Made by a program: the position numbers and the translations under genes. This document shows positions 3,824 through 49,711 of a stretch of DNA of 64,000 bases, in pieces. The notes beneath the pieces are model-generated. The model was not told the origin of the DNA. It did no database searches and saw nothing but the letters and a program-made list of their open reading frames with translations. Source of the stretch: Bacteroidota bacterium (lineage in GTDB: Bacteria > Bacteroidota > Ignavibacteria > Kryptoniales > JAKASW01). Position 1 is the stretch's first letter; every line of letters starts with the position of its first letter. Where the stretch lies: assembly GCA_021812985.1 (NCBI GenBank), contig JAKAMG010000009.1, positions 1 through 64,000 of the forward strand, written 5' to 3'.

Positions 3824-3832
3824 CCTTCTTTG

Positions 3833-3889
3833 TCGGGGCGGTGGGATTCGAACCCACGACCTTGGCGCGTGTCGCGCCACGCTCTAACC
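3833..3889 (-). pseudogene. tRNA-Pro-like 3' fragment with a swapped anticodon arm
   Basis: Fifty-seven bases aligned in register with tRNA-Pro. The D-arm end (GGTTAGAGCG), variable loop, T-arm, acceptor 3' strand and discriminator A are identical, but the 17-base anticodon arm is TGGCGCGACACGCGCCA instead of the CGG-bearing arm. The replacement still forms a 5-bp stem with a 7-base loop (or 7 bp with an ACA loop). No complementary acceptor 5' strand is present, so it is not a complete tRNA. Its first bases contain the stop codon of the upstream GIY-YIG gene. Confidence 0.8.
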
Positions 3890-4135
3890 GCGGCCCTTCC
3901 CAAGTCTCTCCCGCAGGTAGCGGCCTGCTCCACGCTGTTTTATCTCCATCTCCTTCTTCACAGCCTCTGCCCGCGTGGAGAACTCCTCGCTGTACACCAC
4001 TTCCCATGGTATACCGTACCTTATGGATTTTGTTTCCCCTGAATTGTGCTCCGAAACTCGGTTGCCCAAGTCCTCCGTACTTCCCGTATAGTACCTCCCT
4101 GTCTTTCTGCTCCAGAGTATATACGTCGTGTACAT
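3884..4135 (-). CDS. GIY-YIG nuclease domain protein, tRNA-proximal copy
   Basis: Eighty-three residues, a complete minimal GIY-YIG fold: TYILW and YYTGS strands, arginine in LGNRVSEHN, and glutamate in EAVKKEMEI. The ATG at 4135 is only nine bases from the 3' end of tRNA-Pro (4145), and those bases include the ribosome-binding site AAGAAGG; the gene is therefore probably transcribed with the tRNA and freed when the tRNA 3' end is processed. The stop codon TAG is shared with the D-arm of the following tRNA-like fragment. Whether it acts as a homing or repair nuclease cannot be decided from sequence. Confidence 0.85.
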   Translation of the reverse strand: MYTTYILWSRKTGRYYTGSTEDLGNRVSEHNSGETKSIRYGIPWEVVYSEEFSTRAEAVKKEMEIKQRGAGRYLRERLGKGRG

Positions 4136-9591: not shown

Positions 9592-9620
9592 TTGGAACTC
9601 CATATTCAAACACCTATTTT
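9592..9620 (+). promoter_or_regulatory. Predicted promoter of the GT9 gene (leaderless geometry)
   Basis: TTGGAA at 9592-9597, a 17-base spacer, and TATTTT at 9615-9620. Only seven bases separate the -10 box from the ATG at 9628, so the transcript should begin at or next to the start codon. No ribosome-binding site is present. The same geometry recurs before 18656. Confidence 0.5.
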
Positions 9621-9627
9621 TCTAACA

Positions 9628-10635
9628 ATGCAAACTTCCAAAAAGCTCCTCATCAGACTGAGTTCTGCCGGTGATGTCCTCCTAACTTCTCCACTCCTGA
9701 AAATAATCAGGGAGAGGGAGCCGGATTCAGAGATTCACTTCGTAGTAAAGTCAAGCTACGCTGACCTCGTCCGCCTGAATCCTAACGTGGACAGGCTTCA
9801 TTTAGTTCAAGAAGGGGCGGATATTCACGAGCTCGAAAGGCTTAGGAAGGAACTCATTTCTGAGAGATTTGAACTCACGCTCGATCTTCACAATAATTTT
9901 CGGAGCGTTTATCTCCGGAGAGGGACAGCCCCCGAAATCCGTGTGATCACGAAGGACATCTTTAAGAGAACGCTTCTCGTCAGGACCAAATTTAATTTCT
10001 TCCGATCGGTTAGGCCGGTCGCGCTGAAGTACGCCCAGACTTACGACAGCTCCGTGACCGAGGTCCCGAGACCCGAGGTGTTCGTCGCCCCGGAAACGAT
10101 AGCGGCAAGCGACAGGCTTTGGACTGCTGGCGGAAAGGATTCGCGGCCGTCAGTTTTCCTATGCCCTGGGGCAAGGCACTTCACGAAGCGTTGGCCCGCA
10201 AATTACTGGAGAACGCTCACCGAGAGTCTTACAAAGGATTACAGAGTGGTTCTTCTCGGAAGCATCGAGGATTCAGATCTTTGCCATGATATAGCAAACG
10301 GATTGGACGTTTACGATTTCGCAGGAAGGTTATCAATCATGGAAAGCACAGCTATGCTTACCCGCGCGTCGGCTGTGGTAACTAATGACTCTTATCTCAT
10401 GCACGCGGCAAACGCGCTGGGGAAAAAAGTCGTGGCTTTGTTCGGGTCTACGGTCAGAGAATTCGGGTTCTTTCCCTACGCGGTGGAGAACAGGGTACTT
10501 GAAGTGGATGGGCTGAGCTGCAGACCCTGCTCTCATATAGGCCTCGAGGAATGTCCGAGGTCTCATTTCAAATGCATGATGGAGACCACCCCGCAAGCTG
10601 TTGAAGCGGCGGTACGCGCCCTACTTAAATCGTGA
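9628..10635 (+). CDS. Glycosyltransferase family 9 (heptosyltransferase-like)
   Basis: A 335-residue GT-B enzyme of the heptosyltransferase family, which adds heptose or a similar sugar to the lipopolysaccharide core on the cytoplasmic face. Seen: N-terminal KKLLIRLSSAGDVLLTSPLL, the central donor-site strand FLCPGARHFTKRWP and the C-terminal sugar-nucleotide loop VVTNDSYLMHAANALGKKVVALFGST. The ATG at 9628 gives the typical N-terminus; earlier in-frame codons lie upstream of the predicted promoter. The gene stands alone and converges on purC with a 9-base gap. The acceptor sugar is not predictable. Confidence 0.88.
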   Translation: MQTSKKLLIRLSSAGDVLLTSPLLKIIREREPDSEIHFVVKSSYADLVRLNPNVDRLHLVQEGADIHELERLRKELISERFELTLDLHNNFRSVYLRRGTAPEIRVITKDIFKRTLLVRTKFNFFRSVRPVALKYAQTYDSSVTEVPRPEVFVAPETIAASDRLWTAGGKDSRPSVFLCPGARHFTKRWPANYWRTLTESLTKDYRVVLLGSIEDSDLCHDIANGLDVYDFAGRLSIMESTAMLTRASAVVTNDSYLMHAANALGKKVVALFGSTVREFGFFPYAVENRVLEVDGLSCRPCSHIGLEECPRSHFKCMMETTPQAVEAAVRALLKS

Positions 10636-18076: not shown

Positions 18077-18483
18077 TCTTCCTTAGACATTTCAAAGATC
18101 AATTTCCAAACTTCCGCGCTGAGGCTCATTACCGAGAGCCTGGGAAGCCTGATCAGGTCGAAATCCCTGAGTTCTTTCCTCCGCTTGAGGATAGCGAGGG
18201 AAACGGGATTTCTCAGCTTGCTGACCGGTTTCAGGTTCACGACCACAAGTTTTCCGTCGTGCTTTTTCGGATCAGGATATGGATCGCGCGCTACGACCGC
18301 CTCGCCGACGACAGCTTTTTCACTCCCCGAATGATAAATGAGGCACCTATCCCCTGCCTTCATCGTCCTGATGTTCTTCAATGCCAGGTTGTTTGTGACG
18401 CCATCCCAAACGCACTCACCCTCGTTCAGAAGATTATCGAACGAGTAAGTCTGCGGCTCTGTCTTCAACAAGAAATATGACAA
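18073..18483 (-). CDS. EVE domain protein
   Basis: A 136-residue EVE (PUA-like) domain protein. Typical features are the start YFLLKTEPQTYSFDNLL, WDGVTNNLALKNIRTMKAGDRCLIYHSG near 30-55 and VVGEAVVARDPYPDP. EVE domains bind modified bases in DNA or RNA. The start is TTG at 18483, preceded by GGAGG at five bases, the only credible site. It heads the operon with enoyl-CoA hydratase and apt. No restriction or McrB-type gene is nearby, so this is the free-standing housekeeping form. Confidence 0.9.
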   Translation of the reverse strand: MSYFLLKTEPQTYSFDNLLNEGECVWDGVTNNLALKNIRTMKAGDRCLIYHSGSEKAVVGEAVVARDPYPDPKKHDGKLVVVNLKPVSKLRNPVSLAILKRRKELRDFDLIRLPRLSVMSLSAEVWKLIFEMSKEE

Positions 18484-18619
18484 TCTGCCCTCCGGACAAG
18501 TTTACCCGATTTCTTACAAGCTGGCACAGGCTCAATATCCCGGTCCGTGTCCCGATTGAATATCGGCAACTTAAGCCAAAGCATCAAACCTGGCAGTGCT
18601 GTCGCGGGTAAGGGGAAAA

Positions 18620-18648
18620 TTGATTTTGAGGGAGTGAGAGGATATTTT
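18620..18648 (+). promoter_or_regulatory. Predicted promoter of the GlcNAc kinase gene (leaderless geometry)
   Basis: TTGATT at 18620-18625, 17-base spacer, TATTTT at 18643-18648. The ATG at 18656 is seven bases further, where transcription should begin, and there is no ribosome-binding site in the preceding T-rich stretch. Confidence 0.5.
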
Positions 18649-18655
18649 TTTGTAA

Positions 18656-19585
18656 ATGGCACAATTCCTAAATCTCGGCTTCGACGGTGGCGCAACCAAG
18701 ACTACGTGCGTTGCTTTAGACTCAGACCTGCGTCAAGTGGTGGAATCGACCGGACCCGCTTCGAATTTTCAAATTATCGGGACAGACAAGGCATCTGAGA
18801 ATCTCCTGAAATTGACAGAGTCGGTCCTGAAGCAGGCGGGCGCAGATTATGCTGACATCGGTTCGATCTATCTCGGTTTGACCGGTGCCGGAAGGATCTC
18901 CGACGCTGACAGGATGCGTAACACTTTCATGGAACATCTGCAAAAGAGAATCTCACCTCTCCCTATCGTCCGGATAGGAAGCGACGCTCTCGCGGCACTG
19001 GAAGGAGCCTTTTCCGGCAATCCTGGCATGATCCTGATAGCGGGCACCGGCTCCATACTACTTGCCAAGGACGAACAGGACAGGATACACAGGGTCGGCG
19101 GATGGGGACGTTATATAGGCGACGAAGGGAGCGGCTACGCGCTCGGTCGCTCTGTCCTATCGGCCGCCGCGAGAGAGCTCGACGGGCGCGGACCAAAGAC
19201 AGTCATCACCGGACTTTTGAGGGAGCGACACGGACTAGACGATCAGCAGGCCATCATAAGGGCGGTGTACCAGGATAACCTGGACATCGCATCACTTGCA
19301 CCTGTCGTGATAGATGCCGCAGCCTCCGGCGACGAAGTCGCGATGGGGATCGTCAGGAATGCAGCCTCTGAACTTGCCGATCACGTCCAGGCAGCGATGA
19401 CGAAACTCCCGAGTATGGTTCGTATAGCCCTTATCGGAAGCATAGTTTCCACCGAAAACCCCCTGTCCGCCGAGGTGAGACTAACCCTGCAAAAGCGTTT
19501 TCCAGAAGTCATTATAAACAAACCAGAGAACAGCCCTGCTATGGGCGCGGCGCTTTTAGCCGCAAAATCCAAAGGACAAAAATGA
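18656..19585 (+). CDS. BadF/BcrA-type kinase, probable N-acetylglucosamine kinase
   Basis: A 309-residue ASKHA-fold kinase of the BadF/BadG/BcrA/BcrD family, whose members include eukaryotic-type GlcNAc kinase. Phosphate-1 loop is LGFDGGATKTTCVAL (about 5-19), phosphate-2 MILIAGTGSILL near 124, then GGWGRYIGDEGSGYALG and the adenosine region IALIGSIVSTENPLS near 260. The gene overlaps by four bases a GH3 glycosidase that would release GlcNAc or anhydro-muramyl sugars, so phosphorylation of recycled cell-wall amino sugar is the likely role. Confidence 0.85.
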   Translation: MAQFLNLGFDGGATKTTCVALDSDLRQVVESTGPASNFQIIGTDKASENLLKLTESVLKQAGADYADIGSIYLGLTGAGRISDADRMRNTFMEHLQKRISPLPIVRIGSDALAALEGAFSGNPGMILIAGTGSILLAKDEQDRIHRVGGWGRYIGDEGSGYALGRSVLSAAARELDGRGPKTVITGLLRERHGLDDQQAIIRAVYQDNLDIASLAPVVIDAAASGDEVAMGIVRNAASELADHVQAAMTKLPSMVRIALIGSIVSTENPLSAEVRLTLQKRFPEVIINKPENSPAMGAALLAAKSKGQK

Positions 19586-22500
19586 GACGATCCCTCCCCC
19601 TCTTCGTGAGTTTAGTGATGCTCATGTCATGCTCGGCCGGCCGCTATCAGATGGCCGGAGTCCCAGATTCCGGCGGAAAGTCGGAAGAAACCCACGAGAA
19701 GTCGGCGGACTGCATACTAAATGTGCCGTCGGACTCCTCATACTCCTGGCACGTGGACACCGAATGGGTAGAAAGTACCCTCGCCTCGATGTCGTTGCGC
19801 GACAAGGTCTCTCAAATGATCGTCCCTTTTACTTTTGTCCCCTACATGAGCTCCAACGACGACGGATATCAAAGACTCGTGCACTTGGTGAAGGACCTTC
19901 ATGTGGGCGGGTTTGTCGTGTCGCTTGGAGATGTCTACGAACAAGCCGTCCTTCTCAACAGGCTCCAGAAGATTTCGAAAATTCCCCTCCTCTTTTCATC
20001 CGACTACGAGTACGGGCTGGGAATGAGGCTGGCAAATACGATTTCCTTCCCGAGCAACATGGCACTCGGCGCCACGCGGGATTCCGCATTGACTTACCAA
20101 GTCGGCCGCGCAGTCGGAGCTGAGGCGCGCGCGGTCGGGGTGCTCCAGAACTACGCCCCGGTCTCTGATGTAAACGACAACCCAGAAAATCCTATAATAA
20201 ACGTCAGGTCGTTCGGTGAAAATCCAAGACTCGTCGGGAAACTCGCCGTCGCGTTCTTAAAGGGGGTACAGGACGCAGGAGTTCTAGCCACCGCTAAGCA
20301 TTTCCCAGGACACGGTGATACCGAAGTCGATTCGCATTCACAGCTCCCGACGATAGGCTATGCATACAGTCACCTCGATACACTGGAGCTGGTCCCTTTC
20401 CGCCGCGACATTTCGGCCGGAGTCAAGTCAATCATGGTGGCACACATTGCCTTCCCGAATTTCCAGGATGAAACCGGCGTACCGGCAACCCTCTCGCGCA
20501 AAGTCACGACAGGGATGCTCCGGGATTCACTGGGCTTTAGGGGCCTCGTTGTCACAGACGCACTGACGATGGGAGGCGTGACGAAGAAATATTCGACGGC
20601 GGAGGCCGCCATCCGCGCAGTCAGGGCAGGCGCAGATATACTCCTTATGCCCCCTGATGAGGAGACCGCGATAAACGCGATTGTGAGAGCGGTCCATGAT
20701 GGGGTAATCTCTTCTGAGCAGATCGACGCGGCCGTCAGGAAGATACTTGCCGTGAAGTCGGAACTCGGGCTGCAGCAGCGCCGCCTGATCGACTTGAGCC
20801 GCATCAGCGACATCGTCGGCTCCACCGATCATGAGCTACTCGCGAATGAAGCCGCGCGTAGGTCGATAACTGTTGTCAGGAACGTCGGCAATGTTCTGCC
20901 TCTCCAATACCACCAGCAGCAGGAAATACTTTGCCTGACTGTGGCAGACAACGGCGATCCTGATATCGGTGCGCAATTCAGAAAAGAGATTGCCCAGAGA
21001 TGTGATCATGTCGTGTATGCTCAGATCAACCCGGCATCCAATCAGATCGACTTTGACAGGGTTTTCAAACTCTCCCAGCAGGCGGATATCATATTAATTC
21101 CATCTTACGTTCAATGGAGAAGCGGTCTGGGAACCGTAGATTTCACTCCAGAGATAAAAGGTTTCCTGAACAAAGTGATTGCCGAGGAGAAGCCATGCGT
21201 GATGGTTTCCTTCGGGAACCCGTATCTCCTGAGAAGCGTCCCGATCGTGCCCTCCTACGTCTGCGCTTACAGCTCTGCGAAACCGACAGTGACTGCCGCG
21301 GTGGAGGCCATGTTCGGTGAGACAAACGTCTCTGGAAGACTCCCCATAACCATACCCAACGCTGCCCAATACGGCGACGGGGTGGATATTCCGAAGACGA
21401 GTCTCAGATATGGAACCGCGCTCGCTGCAGGATTCAATCCAACCCGACTCGCGAAACTCGACTCGATCATGAATTACTGGGTCGCAGACAGTGCCTTTCC
21501 GGGAGCACAACTTCTCGTGGCAAAGGACGGCATAATCGCTTACGACAAGGATTTTGGCACGCTTGACACTTCACTATTCTCACGGCGTGTGCAGCCCAAC
21601 ACCATGTATGACCTCGCCTCTCTCACGAAGGTCATCGCGACGACTTTCGCAGCCATGAAACTGTACGACGAGGGAAAGCTGGATATTAACGCGCCGGTCG
21701 TGAATTACATTCCTCAGTTCGGGCAAAACGGGAAGGAACATGTCACCATACGCGATCTACTCGTCCATGACTCCGGCCTCCCTCCCGATCCGCCGCATTA
21801 TCTTTGGAATACCTCCGTCATATCTGACGGACAGTTAAACAGGCTCCTGAAGGATCCTCACGCTTTCGTTTACCCCGATTCATTCGGCTCAAACTTCAAC
21901 GCGGCGCATGACGCGATGTATGACAGCCTTTACGCGACTCCGCTAGTCTACAAGACCGGAACTAAGATGGTCTACAGCGACATTGGGATGCTTGTCATGG
22001 GAAAAGTGATCGAAAAGATCACGGGGGTGCCTCTCGATAAGTACGTCGAGGAGAATTTCTATAAACCTCTCGGCATGACTCATACCATGTTCACACCTCC
22101 GAATTACCTGTGGAAGAACTGCGCGGCCACCGAATACGACTCAGCCGCAGGGGGCCTGTTGCAGGGAGTGGTACACGATGAGAACTCGCGGTCGCTGGGA
22201 GGAGTCGCGGGGCACGCGGGACTCTTCTCTACGAGCGAGGACCTGGCCGTGTACGCGCAGATGCTCCTCAACGGCGGCGTATATGACGGCAGGAGATACC
22301 TGAAAAGCTCGACCATTGCGCTCTTCACCAAGAAACAGTCGAGCCTCAGCACTCGAGGCCTCGGTTGGGATACGAAATCACCGGACCATTCAAGTGCTGG
22401 ACACTATTTCTCGCCCAATTCGTTCGGGCATCTCGGTTTCACAGGTACTTCCCTATGGGTCGATCCCGTTAGAAAGCTCTTCGTGGTACTGTTGACAAAT

Positions 22501-22593
22501 CGCGTTTGTCCGACTCGCGCCAACGAGAAGATCGCTGCCGTTAGACCCGATGTCCATGACGCCGTCATAGAAGCCCTGGAGGGCGAAAAATGA
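19582..22593 (+). CDS. GH3 beta-N-acetylhexosaminidase fused to a serine beta-lactamase-fold domain, lipoprotein
   Basis: A 1003-residue exported protein. The signal FVSLVMLMSCSAG is a lipobox, placing it on a membrane. Residues about 60-405 are a NagZ-like GH3 domain with the acid/base histidine loop KHFPGHGDTEVD near 240 and nucleophile Asp in VVTDALTMGG near 325; a GH3 C-terminal domain runs to about 615. From about 630 there is a class-C-beta-lactamase/DD-peptidase-fold domain with SLTK near 680, YSD near 797 and HLGFTGT near 949. The gene is coupled to an amino-sugar kinase. Together they suggest turnover of peptidoglycan. Fusions of this order are known in Bacteroidota. Confidence 0.92.
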   Translation: MRRSLPLFVSLVMLMSCSAGRYQMAGVPDSGGKSEETHEKSADCILNVPSDSSYSWHVDTEWVESTLASMSLRDKVSQMIVPFTFVPYMSSNDDGYQRLVHLVKDLHVGGFVVSLGDVYEQAVLLNRLQKISKIPLLFSSDYEYGLGMRLANTISFPSNMALGATRDSALTYQVGRAVGAEARAVGVLQNYAPVSDVNDNPENPIINVRSFGENPRLVGKLAVAFLKGVQDAGVLATAKHFPGHGDTEVDSHSQLPTIGYAYSHLDTLELVPFRRDISAGVKSIMVAHIAFPNFQDETGVPATLSRKVTTGMLRDSLGFRGLVVTDALTMGGVTKKYSTAEAAIRAVRAGADILLMPPDEETAINAIVRAVHDGVISSEQIDAAVRKILAVKSELGLQQRRLIDLSRISDIVGSTDHELLANEAARRSITVVRNVGNVLPLQYHQQQEILCLTVADNGDPDIGAQFRKEIAQRCDHVVYAQINPASNQIDFDRVFKLSQQADIILIPSYVQWRSGLGTVDFTPEIKGFLNKVIAEEKPCVMVSFGNPYLLRSVPIVPSYVCAYSSAKPTVTAAVEAMFGETNVSGRLPITIPNAAQYGDGVDIPKTSLRYGTALAAGFNPTRLAKLDSIMNYWVADSAFPGAQLLVAKDGIIAYDKDFGTLDTSLFSRRVQPNTMYDLASLTKVIATTFAAMKLYDEGKLDINAPVVNYIPQFGQNGKEHVTIRDLLVHDSGLPPDPPHYLWNTSVISDGQLNRLLKDPHAFVYPDSFGSNFNAAHDAMYDSLYATPLVYKTGTKMVYSDIGMLVMGKVIEKITGVPLDKYVEENFYKPLGMTHTMFTPPNYLWKNCAATEYDSAAGGLLQGVVHDENSRSLGGVAGHAGLFSTSEDLAVYAQMLLNGGVYDGRRYLKSSTIALFTKKQSSLSTRGLGWDTKSPDHSSAGHYFSPNSFGHLGFTGTSLWVDPVRKLFVVLLTNRVCPTRANEKIAAVRPDVHDAVIEALEGEK

Positions 22594-22659: not shown

Positions 22660-23343
22660 ATGCGCATACTTGTTGTTGAAGACGAGAAGAAGGTCGCGTC
22701 CTTCATAAAGAAAGGACTCGAAGAGCAGTCTTACGCCGTTGACGCCGTTTACGACGGGATCGAAGGCGAGAAGTATGCCACTCTAAACGAGTACGATCTC
22801 ATTATCCTCGATGTCCTCCTCCCACGGCAGGACGGGATCGTCACCTGCCAGAAGATAAGGCTTAAGAAAGTGGAGACACCCGTTCTCATGCTGACGGCGC
22901 TTGGCGAAACTGAGGACAAGGTACGGGGTCTCGATTCTGGAGCTGACGATTATCTTACCAAGCCGTTCCAGTTCGAGGAACTCCTCGCCAGGGTCCGGGC
23001 GCTTCTCCGACGGAAGAGCCAGGACAAATCCACAGTGCTTCAGGTGGGCGGGCTGGCCCTGGACCCAGTGACCCGAACAGTCGAAAGGGAGGGAAAGCCG
23101 ATTCGTCTGACCAACAAGGAATTTGCCCTCCTCGAGTACTTTCTCCGGAACAAGGGGCAGCTTCTTTCGCGCGTTAACCTGGCACAGCATGTCTGGAACG
23201 TCAGCTTCGACATGGAATCGAACGTCATCGACGTCTACGTCAAACTTCTGCGAAGGAAAATCGACAAGGGCTTCGACAAACCTTTGCTGCATACGGTAGT
23301 CGGAGCTGGATACGTTTTGAGAGATGAAGATTCGAACGATTAG
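22660..23343 (+). CDS. OmpR-family response regulator
   Basis: A 227-residue two-domain regulator. Receiver domain 1-120 with acidic pair VEDE, phospho-acceptor Asp in LIILDVLLPRQDG near 51, Thr in MLTALGE and Lys in YLTKPF; winged-helix DNA-binding domain from about 128 with RLTNKEFALLEYFLRN and a C-terminal VVGAGYVL hairpin. The ATG at 22660 gives the canonical MRILVVEDE start. It overlaps the sensor kinase gene by 20 bases. The targets are unknown, although the upstream cell-wall genes are on the same strand 66 bases away. Confidence 0.95.
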   Translation: MRILVVEDEKKVASFIKKGLEEQSYAVDAVYDGIEGEKYATLNEYDLIILDVLLPRQDGIVTCQKIRLKKVETPVLMLTALGETEDKVRGLDSGADDYLTKPFQFEELLARVRALLRRKSQDKSTVLQVGGLALDPVTRTVEREGKPIRLTNKEFALLEYFLRNKGQLLSRVNLAQHVWNVSFDMESNVIDVYVKLLRRKIDKGFDKPLLHTVVGAGYVLRDEDSND

Positions 23344-24796
23344 AGCGAAGATAATCTTCCTCTTCGTCGTCATTTTCGGGCTGACACTGTCACTCTTCTC
23401 CGGCGCGTTGTACTACCTCTACGCGAGGCAGAGTGCGCAGAACTTCGACCTCAACCTGAGCAACGACGCGCTGGCAATAGTCGGGATGGTAAAGGGTGAC
23501 AGTTTCCTCGAACAGGAGATCATATCGGGGCTTATTCAACAGCCTCTCCGTCCCAACCTTGGCACTAACAGGTATGTCCAGGTTGTCTCAATCACCGGCA
23601 ATGTCATCATTCGTTCCTCGAACATGAAGGAGGCCGGCCTTCCCATAACGACTGACGTCCTTACGCTAGCCCTCAGCCATCACCAGGTATTCGAGACGCT
23701 GGACAAGCGGACAACCAAGGCGTTGATCGGGGGCGGAAGACTAAGGATGGTGACCTACCCTGTTTTCGACGATCTGGTGCCGAGATATCTTGTCCAGGTC
23801 GCGGCCAGCACTACGTCTCTCGACGATAACATGTTCGAACTTAGGCTCCTTCTGTTCATTTCGGTCCCTTTGACGATCCTGGCGGCAGCCCTCGGCGGCC
23901 TGTTCCTGGCCAAGAAGGCCTTCGACCCGATAGACAGGATAATCAGGACCGCGCAATCGATCTCGGCGGAACACCTTGACAAGCGACTCGACACCGGAAA
24001 GGTGGATGACGAGGTCACGAGGCTTTCGAGAACACTGAACGATATGTTTGACCGAATAGAGGAAGCCTTCCGTCTGCAGAAACAATTCACGGCAGATGCC
24101 TCACACGAGTTGAAGACCCCCCTTACTATTCTGCTCGGGGAAATGGAGGTCGCACTAGCCAATCCAAGGACAAGCGAAGACTATGTGGGAACGCTCAAGA
24201 GTGCTGTCGAGGAAATCAGGCGAATCACGAAGATAGTCGACGAACTCTTGACCATCGCAAGACTCGAAAGTGGGCAGCTGAGGCTTCAAAAGCTACCGGT
24301 CAGGCTGGATGAGCTTCTCCTCGACGCGGTGTCAAAAACATCCGCATATGCTTCAAAGCGCTCGATATCAATCAGCTTCGAAGTCCGGAACCAATCGAAC
24401 GGAGACGACGAGGAGATAATGATTGCTGGCGACGAGGACAAGCTCCTGAGCGTCTTCATCAATCTCCTCGACAATGCAGTCAAATATTCGGATGACAACT
24501 CCTCAATCAGGGTAGTTCAGACCACAGGAAATAATTCGGCGATCGTCGAGATATCGGATAACGGCGTGGGAATAACGAAGGAAGACCTTCCTCACGTTTT
24601 CGACCGCTTCTATCGCGCTGACAAGTCGCGTTCCTCTGCCGGAAATCGGAGCGGGACCGGCCTGGGACTCCCAATCTCAAAGTACCTGATCGAGGCGCTT
24701 GGCGGATCAATTTCTATAAAGAGCGAAGCTGGCGCAGGCACAACCGTAACCGTCAAGCTTCCCATAATGTTACCTGCCGGAACGTCCTCCCTCTGA
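23324..24796 (+). CDS. Sensor histidine kinase (EnvZ/CusS-like)
   Basis: A 490-residue membrane sensor kinase. One transmembrane helix near 10-30, an extracytoplasmic sensor domain to about 165, a second helix near 168-190, HAMP (about 190-245), HisKA with the reactive histidine in DASHELKTPLT near 260, and HATPase with N box NLLDNAVKYSDD, G1 ISDNGVGI and G2 SGTGLGLPISKYL. It forms a pair with the overlapping response regulator. The signal is unknown. Confidence 0.95.
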   Translation: MKIRTIRAKIIFLFVVIFGLTLSLFSGALYYLYARQSAQNFDLNLSNDALAIVGMVKGDSFLEQEIISGLIQQPLRPNLGTNRYVQVVSITGNVIIRSSNMKEAGLPITTDVLTLALSHHQVFETLDKRTTKALIGGGRLRMVTYPVFDDLVPRYLVQVAASTTSLDDNMFELRLLLFISVPLTILAAALGGLFLAKKAFDPIDRIIRTAQSISAEHLDKRLDTGKVDDEVTRLSRTLNDMFDRIEEAFRLQKQFTADASHELKTPLTILLGEMEVALANPRTSEDYVGTLKSAVEEIRRITKIVDELLTIARLESGQLRLQKLPVRLDELLLDAVSKTSAYASKRSISISFEVRNQSNGDDEEIMIAGDEDKLLSVFINLLDNAVKYSDDNSSIRVVQTTGNNSAIVEISDNGVGITKEDLPHVFDRFYRADKSRSSAGNRSGTGLGLPISKYLIEALGGSISIKSEAGAGTTVTVKLPIMLPAGTSSL

Positions 24797-46834: not shown

Positions 46835-48028
46835 TCAAGCGATCACTCCAAGCTCTTTTCCGATGACTCCGAACAATTCCACTATCTTGTCAAGATGCTC
46901 CGGCTCGTGGGTTGCCATGTAGCTTGTCCTGAGCATTTCCATTCCGGGGGGGACACCCGGTCTTACAAAGGCGTTTGCGTACACGCCTGCATCGAAGAGC
47001 TTCTTCCAAAAGAGGAGGGTCTTCATCGTGTCGCCGATGATGACAGGCACGATCGCAGTCCGGTTCTCCAGCACGGAGAATCCCAGCGCCTTGAGTCCCT
47101 GCCTCACGCGGTCGGCGTTGGAGATCAGCCTATCTACCCGCCAGGGCTCTTCCTCGAGAAGCTTGAGCGATTCAATCGCGGCCGCCACGGAGGAAGGAGT
47201 CGGACTCGCACTGAAGATGTAAGCAGGAGAATTATGCCTGAGATAATTTATTACCGCCTTGTCTCCCACAACGAATCCACCGAGGGAAGCGAAGGTCTTT
47301 GAGAAGGTTCCCATCGTCAGGTCGACTTCCTTCTCGAGTCCGAAATGGCTGGCGGTTCCACGCCCTCCCTTTCCGATGACTCCGACAGAGTGCGCATCAT
47401 CTATCATCACTCTCGCGTTGTACTTCTTGGCGACCTCGACCATCCGTGGAAGATCAAGTATGTCACCCGATGTGGAAAAGATTCCGTCGGAAACTATCAG
47501 CTTCGGGGCGTCAACGGGGAGACGAGAAATCACAGTCTCCAGGTTTGTCATATCGTTGTGCTTGTATCGCACCAGCTCAGCTGTCTGTCCTTTCGAGATG
47601 AGGGTCCCGAGAACTATGCATGCATGATTGTCCCGGTCGGAGATGACGTAATCCCCGTGCCCAACGAGAGTCGATATGACTCCGAGCGCCGTCTGAAATC
47701 CCGTCGAATATGTAAGGCAGGCTTCCTTCCCCATGAATTTCGCGAGCCTCTCCTCCAACTCTATATGCAGATCGACCGTCCCAGTCAGATAACGGGATCC
47801 TGAACAACCCGTTCCGTATTTCTCTATAGCCTTCTTCGCAGCCTCCTGAACCCGTGGATGAGTGGTCAGACCGAGGTAATTATTCGAACCGGCCATGATG
47901 ACCTTTCTCCCTTCAATCATCACAACGGGTCCCTCATTTTCCTGAAAGGGGTGTGAATAGGGATAAAGTCCCTGCTTCTTTACTTCATCTGCAAGAGTAT
48001 AGTCAACGCACTTTTGGAATAAGTCCAA
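46835..48028 (-). CDS. Serine palmitoyltransferase-like alpha-oxoamine synthase
   Basis: A 397-residue PLP enzyme of the alpha-oxoamine synthase family (Spt, BioF, Kbl). Seen: MEGRKVIM-like segment before [30 protein letters not shown] near 72, [16 protein letters not shown] near 215 and the PLP lysine in [15 protein letters not shown] near 245. The N-terminus ([21 protein letters not shown]) is like that of Bacteroidota serine palmitoyltransferases rather than BioF or Kbl. With the following GNAT gene it suggests sphingolipid or sulfonolipid formation. No biotin or threonine genes are near. Confidence 0.8.
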
Positions 48029-48248: not shown

Positions 48249-48277
48249 AGGTTCATGTCTCGAGACAACTAACAAGA

Positions 48278-49711
48278 ATGAAGAAAACCCTTATCGTCAT
48301 CGTTCCGGCCTTCTGCCTCGCGGCTTACCTTCTGTATCGTCACTTTATCCCCGACGATGCTTTTATTCACGTGGGTTACGCGAAGGATCTGCTCGCCGGC
48401 CGCGGATACAGTTTTACCGGCAACCGTACTTACGGCTCGACGGCGCCCCTCTGGCCCCCGCTGATCGCAGCCGTTGGGTTCTTCGCCGGAAATCTGATAA
48501 TGACGGCAAGAGTCCTCTCCCTGGTCTTTGCGGTCGCGTCCATCATTACATTCTATTATACCGCCCGGTTGCGATTTTCGGAAATGGAATCTCTCGCCGC
48601 GACTTTCCTCCTTTCAGCGAATGCTTATTTTCTCAGGTGGTCGCTCACGGGTATGGAGTCAACTGCCGCGGTCTTCTTCATGGTGCTCCTCATCACGACG
48701 CTCTACAAAGAGAACGATGGCACGTTACCGCGAGCGTGGTACATTCTAATCGGCTTGGCTCCTTTGGTACGTCCGGAGTTTTACCTTTTCTTCTTCCTCT
48801 TTTTTCTTTACGCACTTGCCGTCAGACCGAGGAGGCTCGATCCTTTCAAAGTCATCCTTGCCGCCCTCCCCTCTCTAATTTGGCTCGCGTTTGCGGAAGC
48901 TTATTACGGCACTATTACTCCGACGACATTCCTAGCCAAGGCCGGAGAACCGTTCTTCACACTTCAGGCCTCAACGCTTTACAGGCTCCTGAAGCTGTAC
49001 TTGTCAGGAAGTCTTGTTGAGACCATTTTCATTGTCCTCGCTGCCGTTGCGTTAGCTGCGAAAGACAAAGGTCGGAAACAACTCAAAGGAACTTTCGAAT
49101 CTGAGAGCATACTTCTCTTCGGTTTTGTCGCGTCGTTCTACGTCTTCTACGGACTGAAAGACGTATTGGTCATCTCGAGATATTCACTCGTCCTTACGCC
49201 ACCGATAATACTGGTGGCTATCGAATTGACCCGAAAGTCTGTCAGGAGCCTCGGCATTTCTCCACGGTTATCTCAATTTGTATTGATCGCGATGATCGGA
49301 GCTTCGCTGTTTTACAATGCCGCATTCACATGGGTAATCGTGAAGCCGGATGCCGACGCCTTCTACAAAGGGTTTCAAACTACTTATTCAAGGATGGCGG
49401 GAATCCTTCATGACAAGGCCAATGCCAACTCGCAGGTTGCGTTGTCCGATGTCGGGTTGATTGGAGTGTACTCAGGTTGTCGCGTGGACGATCTTAACGG
49501 CCTTGTGGATAAAGATAGATTCAGGTACGCTACGAGCGAAGAGTTCATCAATAGCGAGAAGCCGGAGTTCCTGATCACCCGAGGAGAGGTTGACCTGAAT
49601 AAGCTGAGATGTTCGTTGACGCAGATTTACGAGGCGAGTTTGCCTGGCTTCGGCATAAACTCCACGCACCCCGTTGAAGTGCGGATGTTCCGGGCCAGTT
49701 GGACGAACTAA
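48278..49711 (+). CDS. Polytopic membrane protein, GT-C-type glycosyltransferase-like
   Basis: A 477-residue inner-membrane protein with about ten hydrophobic helices and a C-terminal soluble part (from about 370). The first extracytoplasmic loop begins PDDAFIHVGYAKDLLAGRGYSFTGN, the acidic DD motif and segment of GT-C polyprenyl-phosphate-sugar transferases, followed by GSTAPLWPPL. Such enzymes add mannose, arabinose or similar sugars to lipids or proteins on the outer face. It is a single-gene unit; substrate and acceptor are unknown. Confidence 0.7.
   Translation: MKKTLIVIVPAFCLAAYLLYRHFIPDDAFIHVGYAKDLLAGRGYSFTGNRTYGSTAPLWPPLIAAVGFFAGNLIMTARVLSLVFAVASIITFYYTARLRFSEMESLAATFLLSANAYFLRWSLTGMESTAAVFFMVLLITTLYKENDGTLPRAWYILIGLAPLVRPEFYLFFFLFFLYALAVRPRRLDPFKVILAALPSLIWLAFAEAYYGTITPTTFLAKAGEPFFTLQASTLYRLLKLYLSGSLVETIFIVLAAVALAAKDKGRKQLKGTFESESILLFGFVASFYVFYGLKDVLVISRYSLVLTPPIILVAIELTRKSVRSLGISPRLSQFVLIAMIGASLFYNAAFTWVIVKPDADAFYKGFQTTYSRMAGILHDKANANSQVALSDVGLIGVYSGCRVDDLNGLVDKDRFRYATSEEFINSEKPEFLITRGEVDLNKLRCSLTQIYEASLPGFGINSTHPVEVRMFRASWTN

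Follow-up and report, generated by a model that had tools for sequence, protein, structure and literature searches.

A predicted leaderless start of a sugar kinase gene from the Kryptoniales and the conservation of its promoter in close relatives

Introduction

Leaderless genes are a known kind of gene and are well known in other bacteria. In a survey by Zheng et al. (2011), they were predicted in 1 of 37 Bacteroidetes/Chlorobi genomes (2.4%) (PMC3160421). For Bacteroides thetaiotaomicron, dRNA-seq revealed that about 3.7% of the 5′ UTRs are shorter than 10 nt, and in Bacteroides the mRNAs are described as having no classical Shine-Dalgarno sequence and the promoters as following the consensus TTTG / TAnnTTTG (PMC7366714). 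In F. johnsoniae, 87% of the predicted transcripts have leaders longer than 10 nt (PMC6847099). Mycobacteria carry leaderless and leadered genes side by side (PMC4633059), and about a quarter of the transcripts of M. smegmatis are leaderless (quoted in PMC5397173). A limited literature search returned no paper on leaderless genes in Kryptonia, which does not establish their absence from print.

Here we describe a candidate leaderless gene at position 18656 of a window of 64,000 nucleotides, the whole stretch of Kryptoniales DNA that was analyzed. As in the genes of Zheng et al., a -10-type signal roughly 10 bases before the start takes the place of the Shine-Dalgarno sequence in a minority of genes; compared to that survey, the present case concerns an uncultured Bacteroidota genus with about 3% of its starts, a -35 box and conservation followed gene by gene (PMC3160421). 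With B. thetaiotaomicron it shares the phylum and a minority of very short 5′ UTRs, which were mapped there and are predicted from sequence here, whereas the genome studied here, unlike Bacteroides, uses Shine-Dalgarno sites and has the promoter boxes TTGaattt / TAwaTTt (PMC7366714). The coexistence of leaderless and leadered genes is a feature shared with mycobacteria (PMC4633059), where, however, leaderless transcripts are far more common and were mapped experimentally (PMC4633059, PMC5397173).

Materials and Methods

The source genome (G000; 3.50 Mb, 64 contigs) was analyzed in a sample of 1.19 Mb (34%). Genes were called with a simple script of our own based on codon usage, without promoter or Shine-Dalgarno signals, which gave 859 starts with 150 bases of upstream sequence (523 non-operonic and 336 operonic). 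A two-box promoter model was trained on the sequences upstream of the 523 non-operonic starts, from -150 to -16, with the seed TTGA / TATNTT in all fits; since the last 15 bases were left out of the training, leaderless positions took no part in the fit. The distance d is the number of bases between the end of the -10 box and the start codon.

The same procedure, with the model refitted for each genome, was applied to one sample of about 0.4 Mb from each of the genomes G010, G021 and G014. G010, G009, G012 and G002 belong to the same genus as the source genome, G018 to the same order, G014 to the sister family and G021 to another family of the class. Relatives of the kinase were found by an alignment-based search of genome contigs; a search with the single protein gave none.

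Results

The gene starting at 18656 (18656–19585, + strand, 309 amino acids) encodes a protein of the BadF/BadG/BcrA/BcrD ATPase family (PF01869; E 6.6e-41, 141 bits at a cut-off of 31.5) that resembles N-acetylglucosamine kinase. With the NagK equivalog model NF046058 the product reached 112.7 bits (E 2.2e-32), below the cut-off of 370, and its sequence identifies it as a sugar kinase that is NagK-like only. The gene overlaps by four bases (ATGA) with a gene for a protein with a GH3 domain and a beta-lactamase-type (PBP4B-like) domain (19582–22593, + strand). The two genes are presumably co-transcribed, and a role in cell-wall sugar recycling is plausible. The 19582–22593 protein unites the GH3 and the beta-lactamase/PBP4B-type domain in one polypeptide, and its gene follows immediately on that of the NagK-like kinase and precedes a response regulator and a histidine kinase gene at 22660–24796.

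The promoter geometry proposed in the initial annotation was found exactly in the letters: TTGATT (18620–18625), a spacer of 17 bases (18626–18642), TATTTT (18643–18648) and seven further bases before ATG 18656. These seven bases, TTTGTAA (18649–18655), are the expected region of the transcription start and contain no Shine-Dalgarno sequence, as had also been claimed. The -35 box lies within a conserved block at 18617–18627 (AAATTGATTTT) and the -10 box within a conserved block at 18641–18650 (GATAYTTTTT), all on the + strand. The identical layout said to precede position 9628 is likewise present, with TTGGAA (9592–9597), 17 bases, TATTTT (9615–9620) and seven bases before the ATG (9592–9627, + strand). 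The gene behind it (9628–10635, + strand) encodes a heptosyltransferase-like glycosyltransferase of family 9 (PF01075, E 1.4e-30) and also has a leaderless-type start.

In the two-box model of the source genome, the promoter before 18656 scored 15.5 of 17.3 possible bits at d = 7. At least 15 bits were reached by only two of the 523 non-operonic starts and by none of 6647 internal in-frame ATGs. The start codon itself is as good as certain, because an in-frame TAA lies directly before it and no other start codon occurs between it and the conserved N-terminal motif LGFDGGATKT. Three features of a leaderless gene were found at 18656: a complete promoter with a -10 box ending 5–9 bases before the start codon, no Shine-Dalgarno sequence between transcription start and start codon, and a correctly assigned start codon.

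Both boxes, their spacing and the gap of 7–8 bases to the ATG were kept in all eight closest homologs of the genus (53–62% protein identity), with promoter scores of 13.0–15.5 at d 7–8. The window and these homologs share the arrangement AAATTGAYTTT, 13 bases, GATAYTTTTT, 7–8 bases, ATG; the homologs had been chosen by protein identity and the block, present in all eight, was then used to place the ATG for the alignment. Positions 18617–18623 and 18625–18627 in the -35 region and 18641–18644 and 18646–18650 in the -10 region were invariant in the nine sequences. The mean column conservation was 0.92 from -40 to -31, 0.61 from -30 to -21, 0.83 from -20 to -11 and 0.73 from -10 to -1; the DNA further upstream was not kept, with values of 0.40–0.52 for each of the 10-base bins between -150 and -41. 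In a search of the genome for the pattern with 14 free bases between the blocks and up to two mismatches, 24 matches were obtained versus three for a reversed-pattern control.

These data bear on the possibility that the gene has an ordinary leader made from a promoter further upstream, with AGAGGA (18637–18642) serving as a distant Shine-Dalgarno sequence and the TTGATT/TATTTT block being just AT-rich DNA or a secondary promoter. AGAGGA is indeed present 13 bases before the ATG, on the upstream side of the -10 box, five of the nine clade members have AGGA at this position, and a weak promoter-like sequence ends at 18584; with a score of 7.8 it was the next best on the + strand among boxes ending at 18420–18660. 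The purine run is not kept, however (GACGA in one member, AAAGA in three), whereas the boxes are; its spacing of 13–14 bases is beyond the bulk of the Shine-Dalgarno spacings in this genome (5–10), and conservation stays at or below 0.52 in all 10-base bins upstream of -41. We consider this explanation very unlikely. In length and strictness of conservation, on the other hand, the block exceeds what two hexamers require (AAATTGAYTTT, GATAYTTTTT), as would be expected if it were the operator for a regulator and contained promoter-like boxes by chance, with the start site being set otherwise. Yet it fits, at 15.5 of 17.3 bits, a promoter model learned from other genes, and boxes of this kind also precede some tRNA genes, so that we find an operator hardly credible as the explanation.

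One result counts against a leaderless reading of the kinase gene: the block was absent from seven more distant loci of the genus (48–51% identity), some of which are second copies. Three genomes carry both kinds of kinase locus, with and without the block. One of the seven loci (L014) has a weaker promoter of 10.5 bits at d = 6. The kinase homolog of G021 has a different upstream sequence, yet a promoter of 10.7 bits at d = 7.

The initial annotation had asked whether such starts are enriched genome-wide relative to shuffled upstream regions. In the 34% of the genome sampled, this was the case: at a threshold of 8 bits, 28 matches in 25 genes had d 5–9, whereas 200 column permutations gave 1.34 on average and 8 at most, and at 10 bits 22 matches faced a null value of 0.26. 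At other distances, the 8-bit counts were 1 for d 0–4 (null 1.5), 11 for d 10–17 (3.4) and 76 for d 18–40 (9.4). The control sites gave one match at d 5–9 among the 336 operonic starts and three among the 6647 internal in-frame ATGs. The fitted model reads TTGaattt, mostly 17 bases, TAaaTTt (the -10 consensus can also be written TAwaTTt). The motif is real, as an earlier fit to the whole upstream regions, refitted for each permuted set, gave a log-likelihood gain of 383 compared to 37–53 for five permuted sets. The same promoter type was found before some tRNA genes (L143 and, by eye, 3 of 11 tRNA calls). As a separate observation, two loci on contig C47 of the source genome (L155 and L156) have strong promoters of this type with no long open reading frame starting within 140 bases downstream; these are possible small RNA genes.

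Twenty of the 25 leaderless-type genes start with ATG and five with GTG. None had a Shine-Dalgarno 4-mer at a spacing of 4–12 bases, which is partly so by construction because the -10 box occupies this space. The genome as a whole does use Shine-Dalgarno sites, since such 4-mers were found 4–12 bases before 330 of the 859 starts versus 90 of 859 when the test was shifted upstream by 60 bases; its 16S rRNA ends with GGATCACCTCCTTT at the 3′ end. The idea that leaderless translation is a regular strategy of the organism is supported by the enrichment and by the conservation of both window cases in close relatives, in the sense of a minority strategy (25 of 859 starts, about 3%). As the 25 genes come from 34% of the genome, some 70–75 may exist in the whole of it.

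Counting all frames of both strands, the window contains 1863 ATGs, of which four had a promoter of at least 10 bits at 5–9 bases, namely those at 9628, 18656, 48255 and 48071. We read the promoters at 48255 and 48071 as leadered, the ATGs being out of frame with the genes just downstream. At 48255 (+ strand), the ATG follows a strong promoter at a distance of six bases, and the gene called at 48278 is in another frame. On the - strand (48071 to 48028), a strong promoter lies nine bases before an out-of-frame ATG; the gene following it seems to start at TTG 48028, with AGGAGG nine bases before the called start. In the homologous stretch of G010 the ATG is in frame owing to one base fewer, which may point to translation of the leader in some relatives or be a coincidence. 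The G010 partner of the gene at 46835–48028 had been called leaderless at d = 10, probably through a start error, as AGGAGG precedes an in-frame TTG in both genomes. A third leaderless-type gene of the contig (63841–64230, - strand) starts beyond the right edge of the window, and in its G010 ortholog the promoter is conserved, likewise at d = 7. At 3832–3902 (- strand), ARAGORN predicted a tRNA-Cys that Rfam did not report at the gathering score and that is probably false.

Among the other genomes, G010 had 12 matches at d 5–9 in 10 of 181 non-operonic genes (null 0.56), and one of the 10 had a Shine-Dalgarno 4-mer. The starts called for two G010 genes looked wrong or doubtful. In G021, nine matches in 9 of 186 genes were found (null 0.36). 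The peak was less sharply bounded in these two genomes, with 2 and 3 matches at d 0–4 (null 0.4 and 0.5) and 5 and 7 at d 10–17 (0.9 and 1.1), respectively. The sister-family genome G014 showed no excess at d 5–9 (1 of 150, null 0.66), a further point against the leaderless reading.

Four further candidates, hand-picked and consisting of the 9628 gene and three of the other 23, were followed through 12 genomes of the genus; two of them are presumably purN and tsaD, names that we assigned from the N-terminal sequences. With the start of each ortholog taken as the candidate with the best promoter score among one to seven per locus, the layout was present in 11 of 11 purN loci (G012 had no match at the cut-off), in 12 of 12 tsaD loci (lowest score 8.8; one locus lies near a contig end, and an additional C-terminal fragment from that genome was left out) and in 12 of 12 loci of a second family-9 glycosyltransferase gene. 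The promoter of the 9628 gene was located 5–6 bases from the ATG in 11 of 11 orthologs, leaving out as paralogs three weaker matches of about 30% identity (L211–L213), including the best match of G012. In four of these 46 loci (L210, L291, L293 and L295) the gene starts with TTGATG, i.e., tandem start codons right after the -10 region; three of them have a gap of six bases to the ATG, and the TTG of the remaining locus is nine bases from a box.

In the sister family, represented by seven genomes, the pattern was uniformly different: the tsaD promoter was located at d 21–27 and the purN promoter at d 29–34 in all seven, with scores of 11.3–15.8. Among the class members tested outside the genus, purN was leaderless-type in 0 of 18 cases (16 with a promoter above 8 bits at d 10–100, two without) and tsaD in 1 of 17 (seven leadered, nine without a promoter above 8 bits), where single rows may be wrong because the model of the source genome was used and the starts were placed adjacent to the protein match. 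With the promoters of purN and tsaD lying 21–34 bases upstream in the sister family, the leaderless state looks lineage-specific. A reciprocal-best-hit comparison covered four leaderless genes of the source genome per partner genome and is weak, since the sampled contigs contain partners for few leaderless genes. Within it, two of the four partners were leaderless in G010, the third being the 9628 gene with its start miscalled downstream although the layout is present, and the fourth pair, at 38% identity, probably not orthologous; in G014 none of four was leaderless (three leadered, one without promoter), and in G021 one was leaderless, one leadered and two had no promoter.

Discussion

The gene at 18656 very probably has a housekeeping-type promoter placed such that transcription would begin at the AUG or 1–3 bases before it, and ribosomes would initiate at the 5′ end of the mRNA; we assign this reading a probability of about 0.86. 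It rests on the sequence, the conservation in the closest homologs and the excess of such layouts in a third of the genome, together with the fact that neither another possible start codon nor a strong upstream promoter was found. RNA polymerase, directed by the promoter (TTGaattt, 17 bases, TAwaTTt), would start at the A of ATG 18656 or no more than about three bases away, so that the mRNA would have at most a minimal leader and lack a Shine-Dalgarno site. Ribosomes would then load on the 5′-terminal AUG with initiator tRNA, as in other leaderless mRNAs, and the 19582–22593 gene may be translated by coupling via the ATGA overlap.

The exact transcription start is a prediction, and a very short leader of 1–4 bases would be a variant of this explanation, not an alternative to it. 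With the usual spacing of the -10 box, d = 7 puts the transcription start at 18655, corresponding to a leader of one base, and the gap of 7–8 bases in the homologs would place it 1–2 bases before the ATG. The even spread of the matches in the sampled part of the genome over d 5–9 (5, 6, 6, 5 and 6) is also in line with a short leader, which we regard as a realistic possibility, if somewhat short of an even chance.

New here are the genus-wide conservation seen in the tested genes and the difference from the sister family. By comparison between genomes, the results provide evidence that a class of leaderless genes exists beside the use of Shine-Dalgarno sites in one lineage of the Bacteroidota, a phylum for which few such genes had been predicted before. 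We tentatively raise a bolder reading, itself rather doubtful, in which one set of genes (purN, tsaD and two family-9 glycosyltransferase genes, and the sugar kinase gene in one clade) would be leaderless and would have remained so throughout the genus, with leaders of about 15–30 bases for purN and tsaD in the sister family. If this were true, leaderlessness would be a selected, gene-specific trait, and the set would possibly respond to how the initiation machinery (IF2/IF3, 70S) is disposed. Leaderless starts could be misplaced by gene callers that rely on a ribosome-binding site. Because a gene can be leaderless in one family and leadered in its sister family, the two constitute a natural system for studying when and why leaders were lost.
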